A stretch of DNA of 64,000 nucleotides from Limimaricola sp. G21655-S1. GTDB taxonomy: Bacteria; Pseudomonadota; Alphaproteobacteria; Rhodobacterales; Rhodobacteraceae. The position numbers and the translations under genes are program-made. The notes beneath the pieces are model-generated. The model saw only the letters and a program-made list of their open reading frames with translations, did not search any database and was not told where the DNA came from. Below are positions 21,934 through 56,323 of the stretch, piece by piece (the first letter of the stretch is position 1; the number at the start of each line of letters is the position of its first letter). The stretch lies in assembly GCF_027213785.1 (NCBI RefSeq), contig NZ_JAPWGO010000009.1, positions 62,001 to 126,000 on the forward strand, in the 5' to 3' direction.

Positions 21934-22361
21934 CCCAAATCTCCAAAGCATTGTTTCGCCTCGGCTTTCGATCGGATCAAGCCAAGGCGTAGTACATGCC
22001 GGAGTACATTTCTGCCCCCACTGCTTCCTCAAGGATGGCATCTTCTACTTCCAGCGTCGGGTGCCGACCGAGCTGAGATGCCATTACACGTCATCGAGGA
22101 TCTTATAGTTGCTTCGGGCAAGGTCGGCGCGGGTGGCGGCTGCGTGGGGCGTACGTGCGGTGCAGGACGTGAATGTCAGTCTCACGATAGACGAAGCGGA
22201 TTCCACCTTCCACCCGAGACAGATCGGCGGCTGCGGCCCCACCATTCCTTGGTAAATATTTTACCGTTTGGACAAAGTCTTTGAAATGCCTGTTTCGTTG
22301 GCAAGTTGCGCCTTTATTGAGCAGCAGAGGTTTCGAGCAAGTCAAAGAGGAGGATATCCGA
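21934..22361. other. 428-bp gene-free region behind tRNA-Thr, accessory DNA
   Basis: Apart from the integrase fragment, no convincing gene is present. Base composition drops sharply: the 60 bases from 22261 are about 42% GC by eye, against about 70% in neighbouring genes. This supports foreign origin. An overlapping minus-strand open frame (22103-22540) has no recognisable features and crosses the next gene's start, so I do not call it. Confidence 0.5.
22007..22108 (+). pseudogene. Tyrosine integrase remnant (N-terminal fragment)
   Basis: A 33-codon open fragment encodes CPHCFLKDGIFYFQRRVP followed by TELRCHYTSSRI, then stops at TAG. The block GIFYFQRRVPxxLxxHY is the N-terminal arm-binding segment common to Rhodobacterales phage and island integrases. 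No catalytic domain follows, so the gene is broken. Its position 74 bp behind tRNA-Thr, in the same direction, fits a former island integrated into that tRNA. Confidence 0.6.
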
Positions 22362-23492
22362 ATGACGATCTCCACCATTGGCCAGCAGCTCGACCCGCTC
22401 TGGCAAGCCGCGCAGAATGCCGCATCCACTACCACTGCTTCGACTGACCCATCGCCTTCTGGCGGCACACAAACTTCCCCCGCGATCATCATGGATATTT
22501 CCGGAGATGCTAGCGGTGACTCTGCCAGTACGACGACCATGACGAGGGCGGAGCGAGACGCAGCGAAGGCTGCCCTGAAGGTCCAAGAAGAAGCGGCAGA
22601 GGCTCAGGCAAAGGCCGAAGAGGAAGCACTCGAAGCGGCAGCGAAAGCCGCCAAGGAGGCTGCGGAGGCCGCTGAAGACATTGCAAAGGCCGAGGCCAAA
22701 GCCGCTGAGGAAGCAGCGGAGGCGCAGGCAAAGGCCGAGGAAGAGGCACTTGAAGCAGCCGAAAAGGCAGCCAAGGAAGCCGCTGAGGAGGCAGAAGATC
22801 TGGCCAAGGCTCAGGCCAAGGCTGAGGAAGAGGCACTTGAAGCAGCCGAAAAGGCAGCCAAGGAAGCCGCTGAGGAGGCAGAAGATCTGGCCAAGGCTCA
22901 GGCCAAGGCTGAGGAAGAGGCACTTGAAGCAGCCGAAAAGGCAGCCAAGGAAGCCGCTGAGGAGGCAGAAGATCTGGCCAAGGCTCAGGCCAAGGCCGAC
23001 GAGGAAGCTGCCGAGGCTGCTGCAAAGGCGGCAAAGGACGCCTCCAGGAGTGGAGGTGATCCAGTTGCCGGGCCTGCTGGCGCAACTGCCGCGCAAGGAC
23101 CGGATGGCGCCAAAGAGAATGGCTTCATTGACGAAACCGGGGCTGTCGCCAGTCGCGCCTCCGAAAACTCCAGAGCCTTTGAGCGTGCTGGCCCGAAGGA
23201 GAAGGGCTGGAACAAGGTTGATGACTCCTTGACCGCGACTGTTCGTCCCGAGGAAGTCCAAGAGGCCGAAGAAGATGTGGACATCGCCGCATCGCGTGAA
23301 GCTGCCAAGCGGGTGCAAGCCAGGATGATGCAGGAGTCCGTTATCTCCCTGATCAGCAGTACCGATAAAGTGGGCATCACGCTCAAGCCTATCGAGAACG
23401 TCTCGACAGAACGAGCTGGCGGCTCCTACGCAGCGGCCACGCCAAAGCCGGACGCAGTAGAGGCCAGGCAACGCGTGTCAGTGGCAGCTTGA
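22362..23492 (+). CDS. Ala/Glu/Lys-rich coiled-coil repeat protein, unknown function
   Basis: 376 residues, not recognised. The N-terminal 70 residues are Thr/Ser/Ala-rich with DPLWQAAQ and SPAIIMDISGDASG, and have no signal peptide. Residues about 75-230 are a continuous charged helix rich in AEEEALEAAEKAAKEA. The core consists of three 29-residue units, nearly identical at DNA level. The C-terminal 130 residues are non-repetitive, with RVQARMMQESVISLISS. The ribosome-binding site AGAGGAGGA sits 7 bp before the ATG, so it is probably expressed. The composition recalls TolA-type linkers, but no TolA domain was found. Confidence 0.7.
   Translation: MTISTIGQQLDPLWQAAQNAASTTTASTDPSPSGGTQTSPAIIMDISGDASGDSASTTTMTRAERDAAKAALKVQEEAAEAQAKAEEEALEAAAKAAKEAAEAAEDIAKAEAKAAEEAAEAQAKAEEEALEAAEKAAKEAAEEAEDLAKAQAKAEEEALEAAEKAAKEAAEEAEDLAKAQAKAEEEALEAAEKAAKEAAEEAEDLAKAQAKADEEAAEAAAKAAKDASRSGGDPVAGPAGATAAQGPDGAKENGFIDETGAVASRASENSRAFERAGPKEKGWNKVDDSLTATVRPEEVQEAEEDVDIAASREAAKRVQARMMQESVISLISSTDKVGITLKPIENVSTERAGGSYAAATPKPDAVEARQRVSVAA
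22743..22998 (+). repeat. Three tandem 87-bp direct repeats
   Basis: Units begin at 22743, 22830 and 22917, each starting GAGGCACTTGAAGCAGCC. The copies appear identical base for base except for the last few bases of the third unit. The period is 29 codons, so copy-number change keeps the frame. A more diverged half-unit lies upstream near 22617. Identity at synonymous positions points to recent duplication. Confidence 0.9.
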
Positions 23493-23501
23493 CGTGGAAA
23501 G

Positions 23502-23526
23502 GGCCGGGAAACACATCGTCCCGGCC
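23502..23526 (+). terminator. Hairpin after the repeat-protein gene
   Basis: GGCCGGGA and TCCCGGCC form an 8-bp stem with a 9-base loop, 10 bp after the stop codon. It is followed by TACCTCTCC rather than a T run. It is a plausible transcript end. Confidence 0.45.
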
Positions 23527-23872
23527 TACCTCTCCGCATCGCCCTCATAGTTCTGAGAAGCCTGAGATCGCGCACGGATCACCCGGGCGTCGATCCGAAC
23601 GACCGTGCATCGACGGATGCTGAGGAGTGGGTCACGGCTACGGGGAAGGTCCTCCCGTTGAACTCGGCGCCCGAGGGAGCGAGCCGAGATCCCACATCCG
23701 CGCCGTGACCCTTGCAAGCGACCAAGCAGCACTCATCAACCCACGAAACGAGGGTACCACCCCTGCCGTTCCTGATCTAAAGTAAACGTCCGGATGCATC
23801 CGGTCTGTACGGGTTCCGACAAAGCCGGGAGCCGCCTCTCCAGACTTGTGCCGCGTGCATCCCGGGCAGGCG
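23527..23872. other. Decayed 350-bp region without a gene
   Basis: No open frame here has recognisable motifs, and short frames on both strands end quickly. The only structure seen is a small perfect palindrome, CCGGATGCATCCGG, near 23791-23804. No second copy of the tRNA-Thr 3' end was found, so the right border of the presumed island is undefined. Confidence 0.4.
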
Positions 23873-24424
23873 TCAGCGGGGGCTGCGCTTGGCCAGGATC
23901 CGCTGAAGGGTGCGGCGATGCATGCCCAGACGCCGCGCCGTCTCGCTGACATTGCGATCGCACAGCTCGTAGACCCGCTGGATGTGCTCCCAGCGCACCC
24001 GGTCGGCGCTCATCGGGTTCTCGGGCGGCGGCGGCAACGCGTCGTCGCGCGCCAGAAGCGCGTTGGTCACCTCGGTCGCATCGGCGGGCTTGGACAGGTA
24101 GTCGGTCGCGCCGATCTTCACCGCCGCCACCGCCGTGGCGATGGCGCCATAGCCGGTCAGCACCACGATCCGCGCCTCCGGGCGGCTTTCGCGCAGCACC
24201 TCGACCACGTCGAGCCCGTTGCCGTCCTCGAGCCGCAGATCGACCACCGCATAGGCCGGCGGGGTCTGCGTGGCGATGCGCCGCCCCTCCTCGACCGTGC
24301 CGGCGAGCGTCACCGTGAAGCCGCGCTTTTCCATCGCCTTGCCGAGACGTTTCAGAAAGGCCTCGTCGTCATCGACCAGCAGCAGGCTCGGGTCCGGGCC
24401 GAGATCGATCGCCTCTGCGTTCAT
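23873..24424 (-). CDS. regA: Redox response regulator RegA/PrrA/ActR
   Basis: 183 residues. The receiver domain carries DDDEAFLKRL near the N-terminus, the phosphoryl-accepting aspartate in VVDLRLEDG, and the TGYG and LSKPAD blocks. The C-terminal helix-turn-helix SETARRLGMHRRTLQRILAK is nearly invariant in RegA/PrrA/ActR. It is the DNA-binding partner of RegB and controls photosynthesis, respiration, CO2 and N2 fixation genes in relatives. A 52-bp gap separates it from senC on the same strand; regB is divergent. Confidence 0.97.
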   Translation of the reverse strand: MNAEAIDLGPDPSLLLVDDDEAFLKRLGKAMEKRGFTVTLAGTVEEGRRIATQTPPAYAVVDLRLEDGNGLDVVEVLRESRPEARIVVLTGYGAIATAVAAVKIGATDYLSKPADATEVTNALLARDDALPPPPENPMSADRVRWEHIQRVYELCDRNVSETARRLGMHRRTLQRILAKRSPR

Positions 24425-47166: not shown

Positions 47167-47993
47167 GCCAGCACCGCCGCCCGCGTCGCCTCCGTCACCT
47201 GCGGCGTCGCGCCGAACCAACGCTCGAAGCCCGGCACCGCCTGGTGCAGCAGCATGCCCAGACCATCGACGGTGCGGCAGCCACGGGCCCGCGCCGCGAG
47301 AAGCATCGGCGTGTCGAGCGGCGTGTAGACCAGATCGGTCACCAACGCCGAGCCGGGCAGGGCGGAGAGGTCCAGATCGAAGGGATCGGCGCCCTCCATG
47401 CCCAGCGAGGTCGTGTTCACCACGGTCGCCGCGCCGTCGAGCGCGGATGCCGCCTCGGCCCAGTCGATCACGCGAATCCTCGGGCCGAAGGCCTCGGCCA
47501 GAGCCTCGGCCCGGGCCCGGGTCCGGTTCGCGAGCCGGATCTCGGGCACGTTCGCTTCGATCAGCGCGTCCAGGACCGCCCGCGCCGCGCCGCCCGCACC
47601 GAGCACCACCGCCGGTCCCTCGGCAGACCGCCAGTCCGGCGCGCCCTGACGCAGGTTCTCGACGAAGCCGTAGCCGTCGGTGTTGTCGGCATGGATGCCG
47701 TCTTCGCGAAAGCTCAGCGTGTTGGCCGCGCCGATCCGCGCCGCGCGGGCACTGACATGATCGGCCACCTGCAGCGCCGCATGCTTGTGCGGCAAGGTCA
47801 CGTTGGTACCGCGAAACCCCATGCGGGGCAGGGTGCGCACGACCTGCTCGAAATCCTCCGGTTCGACGTGCATGGGCACGTAATGCCCGGCCATGCCGAG
47901 ATCCGCGAGCCAGTGCGCGAAGAGCCGCGGCGAGCGGGAATGGGCGATCGGGGCGCCGATGACGCCGGCCAGCGGAATGCGATGCGCGCTCAT
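47163..47993 (-). CDS. aroE: Shikimate dehydrogenase
   Basis: 276 residues. Substrate motif [13 protein letters not shown], catalytic lysine in [14 protein letters not shown]-binding [11 protein letters not shown], and NTTSLGMEG are all intact. It reduces 3-dehydroshikimate in aromatic amino-acid synthesis. ATG at 47993 overlaps the maf stop by 4 bp. Confidence 0.96.
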
Positions 47994-48589
47994 CGTTGCA
48001 GATCTCCCCTCAGCACCAGCCAGTTGATCAGCTCGACCAGCGGCAGGCCGAGCACGGTGAAATAATCGCCCATCACCCGCACGAAAAGGCGCACGCCCTC
48101 TTCCTCGAGCTTGTAGCCGCCCACCGAGTGGCGGATCGATTCCCAGTTGCGGTCGACGTAATCGCGCAGATACGTCTCGGAGCATTTCGCCATGTCGAGC
48201 CGAACCACGCCGACATGGCGCCATATCGGCTCACCGTCGCGGCAGACCACCGCCGCCGAAAGCAGCTGGTGGGTCCGGCCCGAAAGCCGGGTGAGCTGGT
48301 CGAGCGCCTCTTCGGGGCTTTCGGGCTTGGAATAGATCTCGCCACCGAGCGCCAGTACCTGATCGCAGCCCAGAACCAGCGCGCCGGGATTGCGGTTCGA
48401 GACCTTCAGCGCCTTCATCTCCGCCAGCTTGTCGGCCAGATCGCGCGGCGGCGCGCCTTCGACCAGCAACGCGGCCTTCAGCGCCGCCTCGTCGATGCGC
48501 GGCTTCTCGATATCGAACGGGATCGCGGCCCCTTTGAGGAGGCTGGCGCGGATCTCGGATCCGGAGGCGAGGATGAGGGTCTGGGTCAT
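47990..48589 (-). CDS. maf: Maf-like nucleotide pyrophosphatase
   Basis: 199 residues. [13 protein letters not shown] at the N-terminus and [19 protein letters not shown] are Maf signatures. Maf proteins hydrolyse non-canonical nucleoside triphosphates. It is the first gene on the left replichore, starting right at the border of the putative oriC. Confidence 0.94.
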
Positions 48590-48591
48590 GG

Positions 48592-48609
48592 CAGCCTGTG
48601 GACGACTCT
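48592..48609 (+). repeat. 18-bp direct repeat, left copy at oriC border
   Basis: CAGCCTGTGGACGACTCT. An exact second copy is at 48883-48900. It includes the DnaA-box-like reverse half TGTGGACGA and a GACTC site. It begins 3 bp outside the maf start codon. Confidence 0.9.
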
Positions 48610-48712
48610 AGGGAGGAATCGGGATCGAATCATGAGCACGACTCGGTGGAAGGTTGTGACCCCTCCCGCGACTCGGGACAAGCGGGGTGAGTCGTCTCCG
48701 CGACTCAGCGAC

Positions 48713-48721
48713 TTATCCACG
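48713..48721 (+). promoter_or_regulatory. DnaA box TTATCCACG
   Basis: Differs from the E. coli consensus TTATCCACA only at the last base. The same variant recurs at 48924-48932, 49035-49043 (minus) and 49488-49496, which makes it the likely local consensus. Confidence 0.75.
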
Positions 48722-48807
48722 GGGGAAGAGCATAAGCCCGGCATTGGGGATCGTTGTGGGCAAATGGTGGAGTCAAGATCGCGACTCGGGCGCTGTATAT
48801 GGCAAGC

Positions 48808-48840
48808 TGAAAATTTAAATCATTTATCTTCAGTATTTTA
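48808..48840. other. AT-rich block, candidate DNA-unwinding element
   Basis: A 33-bp stretch with runs such as AAAATTTAAATCATTTATC and AGTATTTTA contains very few G or C bases, in a chromosome near 70% GC. It sits between the two DnaA boxes and right of most GANTC sites, as expected for the melting region of an origin. Confidence 0.7.
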
Positions 48841-48882
48841 GCCGATGTATCCGAGTCGTTCCGATGGCCTCGACTGCAGGCC

Positions 48883-48900
48883 CAGCCTGTGGACGACTCT
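48883..48900 (+). repeat. 18-bp direct repeat, right copy in oriC
   Basis: Exact match of the copy at 48592-48609, 291 bp away in the same direction. The GANTC cluster lies between and within the two copies. Confidence 0.9.
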
Positions 48901-48923
48901 GAGGATATGCCGTCAACGACCGC

Positions 48924-48932
48924 TTATCCACG
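48924..48932 (+). promoter_or_regulatory. DnaA box TTATCCACG
   Basis: Second perfect copy of the local DnaA-box variant, right of the AT-rich block. Confidence 0.75.
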
Positions 48933-49006
48933 GCCCTACTACCCTCTTCATCTTTTCTTTTATCCTTATTCATTTGAGAAGGAGCCGGTCTGAGAAAGGG
49001 ACCGAG

Positions 49007-49456
49007 ATGACCGACTTCGCCGCCTACGCCTATCCGTGGATAAAGACGGGACACATCCTGTCCTTCGTGGCGTGGATGGCGGGCATGTTCTACCTGCCCC
49101 GGCTCTTCGTGTACCACGCGGAGCGGGCAGAGAGCGGCTCGCAGCTCGACGAGACCTTCCAGATCATGGAGACGAAGCTCCTGAAGCTGATCATGGGGCC
49201 GGCGATGATCTCGACCTGGCTCTTCGGGCTGCTGCTGATCTCCTTCGGCGTCGTTGACTGGTCCGAGCCCTGGCCCTGGATCAAGGCGGCCGCGGTGCTG
49301 GCGATGACCGGGATGCATGGCTGGCTGTCGAAGCGGCGCAAGGAGTTCGCCGCGGGCACCAACAGCCGCAGCGGCAGGCAATACCGCATCGCCAACGAGG
49401 TGCCGACGCTGCTCTTGCTGGTGATCGTGGTGGCGGTGGTGGTGCGCCCGTTCTGA
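49007..49456 (+). CDS. hemJ: Protoporphyrinogen IX oxidase HemJ
   Basis: 149 residues, four membrane helices. The HemJ pattern is clear: [32 protein letters not shown], and the later [11 protein letters not shown]. Conserved histidine in TGHI and the tyrosine/arginine pair are present. It oxidises protoporphyrinogen in the inner membrane. Start ATG 49007 follows AAAGGGACCGAG. A DnaA box (reverse) lies inside its early codons, and another sits behind it. Confidence 0.92.
49035..49043 (-). promoter_or_regulatory. DnaA box TTATCCACG (reverse) inside hemJ
   Basis: CGTGGATAA on the plus strand within codons 10-13 of hemJ, the reverse complement of the local DnaA box. It may extend the origin into the gene. 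Confidence 0.6.
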
Positions 49457-49487: not shown

Positions 49488-49496
49488 TTATCCACG
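49488..49496 (+). promoter_or_regulatory. DnaA box TTATCCACG between hemJ and rho
   Basis: Fourth identical box, 32 bp behind hemJ and about 95 bp ahead of rho. It could be an outlying origin box or make rho responsive to DnaA. Confidence 0.6.
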
Positions 49497-49589: not shown

Positions 49590-50864
49590 ATGTCCCAGGA
49601 CCGCCTGAACCTCGCCGATCTCAAGGCGCAGAGCCCGAAGGATCTTCTCTCGCTGGCCGAAGAACTGGAGATCGAGAACGCCTCGACCATGCGCAAGGGC
49701 GACATGATGTTCGCCATCCTCAAGGAGCGCGCCGAGGAGGACTGGGTCATCGGCGGCGACGGCGTGCTCGAGGTGCTGCAGGACGGCTTCGGCTTCCTGC
49801 GCAGTCCCGAGGCCAACTATCTGCCGGGTCCCGACGACATCTACGTCTCGCCCGACATGATCCGCCAGTTCTCCCTGCGCACCGGCGACACGGTCGAGGG
49901 CGTGATTCAGGAGCCGAACGAGAACGAGCGTTACTTCGCTCTGGTCAGCGTCGAGAAGATCAACTTCGAGGATCCCGACCGCGCCCGCCACAAGGTGGCC
50001 TTCGACAACCTCACGCCGCTCTATCCCGATGAGCGGCTGAAGATGGAAGTCGAGGAAGAGGCCGCGACCAAGGATCGCTCGGCCCGGATCATCGATCTGG
50101 TGGCGCCGATCGGCAAGGGCCAGCGTTCGCTCATCGTGGCGCCGCCGCGCACCGGCAAGACGGTGCTCCTGCAGAACATCGCCCACTCGATCGAGAAGAA
50201 CCATCCCGAGTGCTATCTCATCGTACTGCTGATCGACGAGCGGCCCGAGGAGGTCACCGACATGCAGCGCTCGGTCAAGGGCGAGGTCGTCTCCTCGACC
50301 TTCGACGAGCCCGCGACACGGCACGTGGCCGTGTCCGAGATGGTGATCGAGAAGGCCAAGCGTCTCGTCGAGCACAAGCGCGACGTGGTCATCCTGCTGG
50401 ATTCGATCACCCGTCTCGGCCGCGCCTTCAACACCACGGTTCCGTCATCGGGCAAGGTGCTGACCGGCGGTGTCGACGCCAACGCGCTGCAGCGGCCCAA
50501 GCGGTTCTTCGGCGCGGCGCGCAACATCGAGGAGGGCGGCTCGCTCACCATCATCGCGACCGCGCTCATCGACACCGGCAGCCGTATGGACGAGGTGATC
50601 TTCGAGGAGTTCAAGGGCACCGGCAACTCCGAGATCGTGCTCGACCGCAAGGTGGCGGACAAGCGCGTCTTCCCGGCGATGGACATTCTCAAATCCGGCA
50701 CCCGCAAGGAGGATCTTCTGGTCGAGAAGGTCGATCTTCAGAAGACCTATGTGCTGCGCCGCATCCTGAACCCGATGGGAACCACCGACGCGATCGAGTT
50801 CCTGATCTCGAAGCTGAAGCAGACCAAGACCAACTCGGACTTCTTCGACTCCATGAACACCTGA
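49590..50864 (+). CDS. rho: Transcription termination factor Rho
   Basis: 424 residues. The N-terminal helical domain is followed by the RNA-binding cold-shock fold ([24 protein letters not shown]-like, about 58-120), Walker A APPRTGKT (184-191), Walker [17 protein letters not shown], and the Q-loop. It is a hexameric RNA helicase that ends transcripts. ATG at 49590 follows AGGA; a longer upstream frame has no similarity. First of rho-mnmE-mnmG-rsmG-parA-parB. Confidence 0.98.
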
Positions 50865-52176: not shown

Positions 52177-52192
52177 TGTTTCACGTGAAACA
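52177..52192. promoter_or_regulatory. parS site 1 across the mnmG start codon
   Basis: TGTTTCACGTGAAACA is identical to the canonical ParB-binding parS. The GTG start codon of mnmG (52185-52187) lies in its right half, and the ribosome-binding site AGGAG (52171-52175) ends just before it. 3.3 kb from oriC. Confidence 0.95.
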
Positions 52193-54041: not shown

Positions 54042-54658
54042 CCGCTGACAGCGTTTTTTACGACTTGGGTGTTTCACGTGAAACACGAGAACGTTTGATC
54101 GCTTACGCCGCACTCGTCCGCAAATGGTCCCCGGCGATCAATCTCGTTTCAAAATCCGACTTGGAACAGCTCGAAACCCGGCACATCGCCGATTCCCTGC
54201 AACTCGCTGAGTTCCTTCCTAACGCGCCTGGAACTTGGGCGGATCTCGGATCAGGGGGCGGATTTCCTGGGATCGTGGTCGCCATTTTGGCTGCCGAGCA
54301 GGAAAATGGTCTCGACTTGCATCTGGTCGAAAGCGACCAACGGAAAGCGGCATTTCTACGGACCGCTGGACGGGAGCTAGATCTCTCCCTGACCGTCCAC
54401 TGCACGCGGGTCGAGCAGCTCGCTTCCTTGGGGGCGGCAACAATCAGCGCGCGTGCCTTGGCGCCGCTGACGGATCTACTGACCTATGCGCACCGGCACC
54501 TTGCGCCGGGCGGGCGATGCGTGTTCCTGAAGGGACAGACCTACGAAGCCGAGATTGACGAAGCACGTAGGACTTGGCAATTCGACGTCGATGCCCGACA
54601 GAGTGTTACCGACCCCGCAGCCCGTATCCTGCTCGTGAGCAACCTGACCCATGCCTGA
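54038..54658 (+). CDS. rsmG: 16S rRNA (guanine527-N7) methyltransferase RsmG
   Basis: 206 residues. The SAM-binding motif [15 protein letters not shown] and [13 protein letters not shown] are clear; [12 protein letters not shown] is the family block. It methylates G527 in 16S rRNA. A perfect parS lies inside its first 16 codons, read as Gly-Val-Ser-Arg-Glu-Thr. GC is only about 52-62% in two 60-base lines. Overlaps parA by 8 bp. Confidence 0.95.
54070..54085. promoter_or_regulatory. parS site 2 inside rsmG
   Basis: Second perfect TGTTTCACGTGAAACA, extended by one base on each side to an 18-bp palindrome (54069-54086). It is 5.2 kb from oriC and 0.6 kb ahead of parA. Encoded within rsmG codons. 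Confidence 0.95.
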
Positions 54659-55433
54659 GACCTGTCGTATCATCGCCCTTGCCAACCAGAAGGGCGGGGT
54701 CGGGAAAACCACCACGGCAATCAACCTCGGCGCGGCTTTGGCCAAGGCCGGGCGGCGGGTCCTGCTGGTCGACATGGACCCGCAGGGCAACGCCTCCACA
54801 GGCCTCGGCCTTGCCGCCGGCGATCGTCGATCCACTACCTACGACCTGCTACTGGGACAGGATCCCGCGTCGGAGGGGATACATGGGACGCAGGTCTATG
54901 GGCTGGATATCATCCCGGCGACGACCGATCTGAGCTCCGCCGATGTCGAGCTGATGGCCTCGGGCGGCCGCAGTCGCATGCTGCAGCGCCGTTTGGCCGA
55001 GCTTATCGTCGACAGGGGCGACTACGACTACGTTCTGATCGATTGTCCTCCGGCGCTGAACCTTCTCACCATCAACGCGATGGTTGCCGCCGGCTCGATG
55101 ATCGTGCCCTTGCAGAGCGAGTTCTTCGCGCTCGAAGGCCTCTCGCAGCTTATGCTGACATTGCGCGAGGTGCGCAGCACCGCCAACGAAGCCCTGCGGA
55201 TCGAGGGCATCGTCCTGACGATGTATGATCGCCGCAACAATCTGTCCCAGCAAGTCGAGGCCGACGCGCGCGGCACCTTGGGCGATCTCGTGTTCAAGAC
55301 GGTGATCCCGCGCAATGTGCGGTTGAGCGAAGCGCCGTCCCATGCCATGCCGGTTCTCGATTACGATCCCGCCTGCGCGGGCACCAAGGCCTATCTGGAT
55401 CTGGCCGCAGAAGTCATTGAACGGGAGGGATGA
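54651..55433 (+). CDS. parA: Chromosome partitioning ATPase ParA
   Basis: 260 residues. Deviant Walker A NQKGGVGKTTT (12-22), then LLVDMDPQGNASTGLG and the DYVLIDCPPAL Walker B. It forms dynamic DNA-bound gradients that pull ParB-parS complexes apart. Overlaps rsmG by 8 bp and parB by up to 4 bp. Confidence 0.97.
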   Translation: MPETCRIIALANQKGGVGKTTTAINLGAALAKAGRRVLLVDMDPQGNASTGLGLAAGDRRSTTYDLLLGQDPASEGIHGTQVYGLDIIPATTDLSSADVELMASGGRSRMLQRRLAELIVDRGDYDYVLIDCPPALNLLTINAMVAAGSMIVPLQSEFFALEGLSQLMLTLREVRSTANEALRIEGIVLTMYDRRNNLSQQVEADARGTLGDLVFKTVIPRNVRLSEAPSHAMPVLDYDPACAGTKAYLDLAAEVIEREG

Positions 55434-55441
55434 GAGCGGAT

Positions 55442-56323
55442 ATGGCCGAAAAGCAGAAGACGCGCGGTCTCGGGCGGGGGCTTTCCGCCCTCATGGCCGA
55501 TGTAACCCAGGATCAGACCACCGCAGAACAGGCAAGGCGTCCCGACATGATGGTTCCGATCGAAAAGATCCGTCCCAATCCGGACCAGCCAAGGCGCCAT
55601 TTCGACGAAACGGCGCTCGAGGAACTCGCATCTTCGATCCGCGAAAAGGGTGTGATCCAGCCGCTGATCGTGCGCCGTGATCCCAATCGCGACGGCTATT
55701 TCGAAATCGTCGCCGGTGAACGCCGCTGGCGCGCCTCGCAGATCGCGAAACTGCACGAACTCCCGGTACTGATCCGCGAATACAGCGACACCGAGGTTCT
55801 CGAAGTCGCGATCATCGAGAACATCCAGCGCGCCGATCTCAATGCGATCGACGAAGCCGCCGGTTATCGGCAGCTGATGGACCGGTTCGGCCATACGCAA
55901 GAGCAACTGGCCAGCGCGCTCGGCAAGAGCCGGAGCCATATCGCGAACCTGATGCGCCTCCTGTCTCTTCCCGCGGATGTCCAGGAAATGCTGACGACCG
56001 GCCAGCTGACGGCTGGCCATGCGCGGACCTTGGTCGGCAACGAACATGCCTCCAGCCTCGCGCGCCAGATCCTGCTCAAGGGCATGTCGGTGCGCGACGC
56101 TGAATCGCTGGTCCGCAAACCCGGCAAGGCACCGACACCGAAGGCCGCACGCAAGCCGAGCAAGGATGCCGATACCCTTCAGATCGAGAGCGAGCTTTCC
56201 GCGACGCTGCAAATGCCAGTGAGCATCGATCACGATAGCCAAGGGGAGGGCGGCCGTATCTCGATGCGCTATCGCGATCTGGAGCAGTTGGACGACATCC
56301 TTCGAGTGCTCTCGGGGAACTGA
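55442..56323 (+). CDS. parB: Chromosome partitioning protein ParB
   Basis: 293 residues. The N-terminal RGLGRGLSALMADV is the ParA-interaction segment. The CTP-binding/clamp motif GERRWRASQIA and ENIQRADLNAIDEAAGY are present, followed by the helix-turn-helix LGKSRSHIANLMRLL. It loads at the two parS sites. ATG at 55430 is an alternative start and overlaps the parA stop, but leaves only 1 bp to the GGAGG. Confidence 0.96.
   Translation: MAEKQKTRGLGRGLSALMADVTQDQTTAEQARRPDMMVPIEKIRPNPDQPRRHFDETALEELASSIREKGVIQPLIVRRDPNRDGYFEIVAGERRWRASQIAKLHELPVLIREYSDTEVLEVAIIENIQRADLNAIDEAAGYRQLMDRFGHTQEQLASALGKSRSHIANLMRLLSLPADVQEMLTTGQLTAGHARTLVGNEHASSLARQILLKGMSVRDAESLVRKPGKAPTPKAARKPSKDADTLQIESELSATLQMPVSIDHDSQGEGGRISMRYRDLEQLDDILRVLSGN

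Follow-up and report, generated by a model that had tools for sequence, protein, structure and literature searches.

In Escherichia coli, oriC carries 11 GATC sites and a further GATC cluster lies at dnaA, both being sequestered by SeqA (PMC13337833, PMC5145175, PMC10073500); the cluster at dnaA is given as 6 sites in one account (PMC5145175) and as 8 in another (PMC10073500). Among the alphaproteobacteria, the Cori origin of Caulobacter crescentus is a DnaA origin with weak DnaA boxes (PMC4468827), in which several GANTC motifs, the sites methylated by CcrM, have been reported (PMC3973325). The ori2 origin of Agrobacterium, which belongs to the repABC type, depends on RepC, contains three GANTC motifs and over-initiates when CcrM is overexpressed, as described in PMC11514494, and repABC origins have been characterized elsewhere as GANTC-rich (PMC6090056). 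At low resolution (chromosomes divided into 100 bins), GANTC numbers rise towards the origin in four alphaproteobacterial orders, including the Rhodobacterales (PMC9836097). The role of origin methylation in once-per-cycle firing in alphaproteobacteria is unsettled: it is assumed in a model of the Caulobacter cell cycle (PMC2217572), it is argued against in PMC3973325, where initiation control is reported to be normal in delta-ccrM cells in minimal medium, and PMC11514494 describes effects at the RepC-dependent origin, with no significant effect of either CcrM depletion or overexpression at ori1. Both the Caulobacter mutant and ori1 count against such a role. No work describing an origin in Limimaricola, or a DnaA-dependent origin with a comparable GANTC array, was found among open-licence full texts. 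What stands out here is a conserved array of CcrM sites at an origin of that kind, the location of the origin itself being ordinary.

The stretch of DNA analyzed (the window; 64,000 nucleotides) corresponds to positions 62001-126000 of contig C584, in a Limimaricola assembly of 584 contigs and 4.23 Mb. A preliminary description of this window had placed a probable chromosomal origin (oriC) in the 417-bp gap at 48590..49006, citing divergent genes on either side, two DnaA boxes, an AT-rich block and nearby parS and parAB. The flanking genes are indeed divergent, with maf (47990..48589) on the minus strand and hemJ (49007..49456) on the plus strand, both identified by NCBIfam and Pfam models. 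From the gap, the gene order is hemJ, rho, mnmE, mnmG, rsmG, parA and parB, with maf on the other side. The rho gene (49590..50864, plus strand) and parB (55430..56323, plus strand) were assigned by profile matches, while the best matches of parA (54651..55433, plus strand) were partition or ParA-type ATPase models, below their cut-offs. Perfect 16-mer parS sites occur at 52177..52192, in the mnmE-mnmG gap, and at 54070..54085, inside rsmG, so that parABS lies within 8 kb of the maf-hemJ gap, in line with the nearby parS and parAB of the preliminary description.

The dnaA gene, noted earlier as absent from the window, starts at C584:165995, approximately 55 kb downstream of the gap on the same contig. 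The choice of hemJ, rather than hemE, as the neighboring gene was also borne out: none of the five genomes checked had hemE at the maf-hemJ locus; it was on a different contig in the Limimaricola assembly itself and 0.58 and 0.66 Mb from the locus in two relatives whose chromosome is a single contig. In this respect, in its exact DnaA boxes and in having no full CtrA site (see below), the Limimaricola gap differs from Cori of C. crescentus. As a separate observation, 36 of 199 genomes of the family had no strong HemJ match (E 1e-30), some of them having only remote matches; the gene beside the origin in such genomes may have been replaced or may have diverged.

The locus was compared within the genus in eight Limimaricola genomes (our own and seven others, one per species) and, beyond it, in the family. 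Among named relatives in the scan, in which very near records may be missing, L. cinnabarinus was the closest, with 91% identity in HemJ. The maf/gap/hemJ order was found in 76 of 80 related loci, with gaps mostly of 360-450 bp; of the remaining four, three were truncated by the end of a contig and one had maf elsewhere. An origin between maf and hemJ is in itself ordinary for Rhodobacteraceae, whose predicted origins (maf-hemJ-rho) resemble that of Limimaricola in gene order, in a gap of approximately 400 bp, in their DnaA boxes and in a pyrimidine module on the hemJ side.

Four exact TTATCCAC octamers occur in the 64-kb window, all of them inside 783 bp at the gap. Two are situated in the gap itself, at 48713..48720 and 48924..48931 (both on the plus strand), in agreement with the two boxes reported earlier, and the second of these adjoins the pyrimidine tract. 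Another, at 49036..49043 (minus strand), lies within the first codons of hemJ, the coding start of which may be part of the origin. In all eight Limimaricola genomes these three octamers are exact and keep their position with respect to hemJ, and the fourth, in the hemJ-rho gap (49488..49495, plus strand), is exact in 6 of 8. In addition, two DnaA-box-like TCGTCCACA sequences, with two mismatches to TTATCCACA, were found on the minus strand at 48597..48605 and 48888..48896, where they overlap by 2 bp the GANTC sites at 48604 and 48895, respectively. Both are contained within a 23-nt direct repeat (91%) that flanks the GANTC array, and L. cinnabarinus (L034) carries the same class of weak box. 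When one mismatch was allowed, the whole window contained 11 boxes versus 12.1 expected by chance; the DnaA-box signal therefore resides in the clustering of exact sites. When the dinucleotides of the gap were shuffled 5000 times, two or more exact sites never arose. Across 73 related gaps (three of the 76, being longer than 700 bp, were dropped from the box, palindrome and GANTC counts), DnaA-box-like nonamers averaged 3.8 per gap, versus 0.27 in shuffles. The locus thus shows the intergenic clustering of DnaA boxes expected of an oriC.

The gap has a GC content of 54.4%, as compared with 68.5% over the whole window, and the 50-mer richest in AT anywhere in the 64 kb begins at 48791. To this extent the AT-rich block of the preliminary description, presumably 48801..48842, is real, but the block varies within the genus, and it was rejected as a conserved unwinding element since it is poorly conserved even among Limimaricola species. 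The likely unwinding element, as judged from sequence, is instead a module at 48924..48975 (plus strand), consisting of the second DnaA box, a GC-rich spacer, CTACTA and a pyrimidine tract, which places an AT/pyrimidine-rich region beside the terminal DnaA box, as in other oriC regions. The module was searched for as a DnaA-box core followed by a CTAC, CATC or CAAC element and a pyrimidine run. Of 135 unique gaps from outside Limimaricola, 86 had it on the hemJ side, versus a mean of 0.4 in shuffles; on the maf side, the same search yielded one (mirrored) or none (same strand). The arrangement resembles that presented for other bacteria in PMC5043019, where the unwinding region after a DnaA box contains a DnaA-trio.

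The set of 135 gaps was assembled from the 73 related gaps above, from 60 fetched stretches, of which 3 were dropped for want of an adjacent maf, and from 22 non-genus loci, of which six were not used (four had no maf match and two had gaps of more than 1 kb). The 60 stretches came from genomes matched in the family HemJ search, the majority being top scorers for HemJ, and some of the 135 gaps belong to records labelled only Rhodobacterales, Alphaproteobacteria or Pseudomonadota. Removal of duplicates reduced the gaps from 145 to 135, and L034 was excluded, its coordinates being those of G006. Within the gap no RNA feature was detected, the single sub-threshold Rfam match lying outside it, and one terminator found in the region was set aside as being at chance level. 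The site of CtrA is TTAA-N7-TTAA; searched for as exact full sites, it was found in none of the eight Limimaricola gaps.

GC skew, which the preliminary description had named as one check that could overturn its proposal, was measured on samples rather than whole genomes, and the outcome was mixed. In G020, a family member whose chromosome is one 4.33-Mb contig, skew ranged from -0.081 to -0.006 over the eight 20-kb samples that precede hemJ and was +0.062 in the sample beginning 2.5 kb past the hemJ start; two later samples (up to 3.1 Mb) were slightly negative. In Limimaricola G003, the sampled cumulative skew was lowest at the sample containing the gap. The agreement was looser in our own contig, with its minimum at the right end of the window, approximately 15 kb from the gap, and in Limimaricola G007, with its minimum at 316 kb and the gap at 290 kb (26 kb apart). 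One relative counts against the origin: in G010, likewise a single contig, the sign changes between 370 and 550 kb with hemJ at -82 kb, a distance of 0.45-0.63 Mb, a mismatch that perhaps reflects rearrangement.

These displaced minima and the G010 profile are what would speak for replication beginning elsewhere, the gap being an intergenic region that simply happens to lie near parS. Such a reading is highly improbable, given the sign change at hemJ in G020, the minimum at the gap in G003, the excess over shuffles of both DnaA-like boxes and the hemJ-side module in related gaps, and the proximity of parABS. Synteny, DnaA boxes, parABS and, for the most part, GC skew agree, and the maf-hemJ gap is very probably where DnaA-dependent replication of the main Limimaricola chromosome begins. 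The gap provides the family with an anchored origin position.

Neither the hemJ-side module nor the GANTC array had been mentioned in the preliminary description; both were found on checking. The gap contains 11 GANTC sites, versus 0.39 predicted from the remainder of the window (Poisson 6e-13). Shuffling its dinucleotides left a mean of 3.1 such sites, and 1 shuffle in 5000 reached 11; the shuffle mean is already this high owing to an abundance of GA and TC steps in the gap, which derive in part from the sites themselves. Seven other palindromes of the same composition numbered 0-4 per Limimaricola gap. Nine of the 11 sites, at 48604..48608, 48616..48620, 48640..48644, 48689..48693, 48702..48706, 48770..48774, 48783..48787, 48853..48857 and 48895..48899, are conserved in 8 of 8 Limimaricola genomes, as opposed to 45 of the 287 other 5-mers of our own gap. 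The other two sites, at 48627..48631 and 48670..48674, are conserved in 7 of 8, the exception in both cases being G005, which has a site shifted by 1 bp from the former and one 4 bp away from the latter. These two G005 sites are among eight further GANTC positions, each of which is present in only one to three Limimaricola genomes, and in which C, G, A and T are all represented as the middle base.

The flanks of the sites are partly conserved, and six of our own 11 read CGACTC, which would be consistent with a protein-binding site that merely contains GANTC, its methylation being incidental. The extra sites nevertheless use all four middle bases in differing flanks, G005 carries other sites at offsets of 1 and 4 bp from its two missing ones, and the sites upstream of dnaA, described below, share GANTC in other sequence contexts than those of the gap. 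A bystander role of this kind is therefore quite unlikely, and the array is very probably under selection as GANTC itself.

The eight Limimaricola gaps contain 11, 11, 11, 13, 13, 12, 12 and 14 GANTC sites, in which they differ from the other predicted origins of the family. The 135 other unique gaps have a median of 1; 120 of them contain only 0-3, 134 contain at most 7, and a single one reaches 11. From these counts, the oriC array is, in this sample, nearly genus-specific. The exception is L106 (MAG Co_bin.45), outside the genus and with a HemJ identity of 58%, the 11 sites of which are spaced unlike those of Limimaricola and thus probably represent a separate gain. The gap of Pseudoroseicyclus (G025, also L037) has 7 sites. 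An enrichment of GANTC across the family beyond that due to composition was considered and rejected: the mean over the 135 gaps is 1.62, versus 0.76-1.53 for the seven other palindromes, and any family-wide enrichment is therefore slight at most.

A second GANTC cluster is located outside the window, upstream of dnaA (C584:165375-165625), next to a preceding gene that we take to be rpsT from the end of its reading frame. The densest 417-bp segments of our own contig (171.6 of 173.6 kb examined) contain 11 (the gap), 7, 4 and 4 sites, those of the G007 contig (280 of 543 kb) 11, 7, 4 and 4, and those of the G003 contig (360 of 532 kb) 12, 8, 6 and 5; in the parts examined of all three, the gap ranks first in GANTC density and the region upstream of dnaA second. 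The 800 bp preceding dnaA contain 7, 7, 8, 9, 9, 7, 9 and 8 sites in the eight Limimaricola genomes. Thirteen other members of the family have 1-8 in the same interval, eleven of them 3-5 and the highest, G009, 8 (the start of the dnaA match is partial in G011, and for G010 the upstream sequence is missing); in G021, 8 sites fall within 417 bp farther upstream. From these counts, the GANTC group at dnaA is a family trait that has been strengthened in Limimaricola. Seven more genomes, picked for their many origin sites, have 3-6 upstream of dnaA. The counts at the origin and upstream of dnaA, for which some dnaA starts are approximate, are 11 and 5 in L106, 7 and 5 in G025, 7 and 4 in G231, 6 and 3 in L104, 6 and 6 in L100, 5 and 3 in L062, and 5 and 3 in L080. 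A coupling of the two counts outside Limimaricola is thus unsupported, high numbers at the origin occurring without high numbers at dnaA.

The two clusters bear on the more conventional interpretation of the array, whereby the locus is an ordinary Rhodobacteraceae origin and the GANTC sites serve only the promoters of maf and hemJ, read by GcrA and CcrM, with no part in initiation. CcrM and GcrA do act on Caulobacter promoters (PMC8116508, PMC3973325), the gap is a divergent promoter region, and the Caulobacter work cited above describes initiation control as independent of CcrM (PMC3973325). Set against this, 11 sites over approximately 300 bp far exceed the average of 0.4-1.5 per promoter given for alphaproteobacteria in PMC2877005, the same gap contains 0-3 sites in most relatives, the other dense cluster sits at dnaA, and no sigma-70-type promoter, the only type scanned for, was found in the region. 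We regard a promoter-only function as unlikely, though it is a stronger contender than the bystander role considered above.

The machinery for GANTC methylation appears to be in place. The genome encodes CcrM, with N6_N4_Mtase and RAMA domains and CcrMI as the closest solved chain (E 4.9e-167). RAMA and GcrA family matches were obtained in 13 of 13 genomes searched, the GcrA model also matching one control outside the alphaproteobacteria, Sulfolobus. SeqA (PF03925) was found in none of 10 genomes searched, the E. coli control being positive.

Our preferred account of the locus is that of a DnaA-dependent origin with a conserved CcrM-site array, hemimethylation of which most likely lowers re-initiation; taken as a whole, we consider it somewhat better than evenly supported. 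DnaA would bind both exact boxes of the gap, as well as the flanking weak boxes and probably the ones within hemJ and ahead of rho, and the duplex would then be opened at the hemJ-side module (48924-48975). With 11 GANTC sites beside and overlapping the DnaA boxes, the origin would form a dense target for CcrM. In Caulobacter, CcrM acts only late in the cell cycle, and approximately 80% of cells consequently carry hemimethylated sites near the origin (PMC3973325). Were CcrM timed likewise in Limimaricola, the array would, once the origin had fired, remain hemimethylated up to a late stage of the cycle, and together with the cluster upstream of dnaA it would constitute a long-lasting post-initiation mark. 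Hemimethylation of both would most likely lower re-initiation, either through a direct change in DnaA binding or by way of a reader, for example GcrA; as SeqA was not found, the effect would have to depend on DnaA or on a different reader. We infer both methylation of the array in vivo and its effect on initiation, and the specific claim that the array limits initiation is put forward tentatively, with slightly less than even confidence.

The parallel with the E. coli Dam/SeqA system lies in the two clusters of adenine-methylation sites, in Limimaricola 11-14 at oriC and 7-9 in the 800 bp upstream of dnaA. The systems differ in that Limimaricola has GANTC and CcrM and no SeqA was found; the likeness is one of sites and genes. 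That Limimaricola evolved, separately from E. coli, a two-locus block to re-initiation at oriC and dnaA, composed of CcrM sites and a reader of hemimethylated GANTC, is a speculative and rather improbable extension. Agrobacterium ori2 likewise has GANTC in an alphaproteobacterial origin, and differs in its dependence on RepC and its three motifs, as opposed to the DnaA boxes and eleven GANTC sites of the Limimaricola gap. Given the unsettled role of origin methylation in alphaproteobacteria, 11-14 conserved CcrM sites together with the dnaA cluster offer a favorable natural test system, for which relatives with 0-3 sites can serve as controls.

Elsewhere in the window, the segment at 22001-24000 stood out by its composition, with a GC content of 0.61 and an AT skew of 0.21, versus a GC content of 0.70-0.72 in the neighboring 2-kb steps, and is possibly a foreign or otherwise unusual segment.
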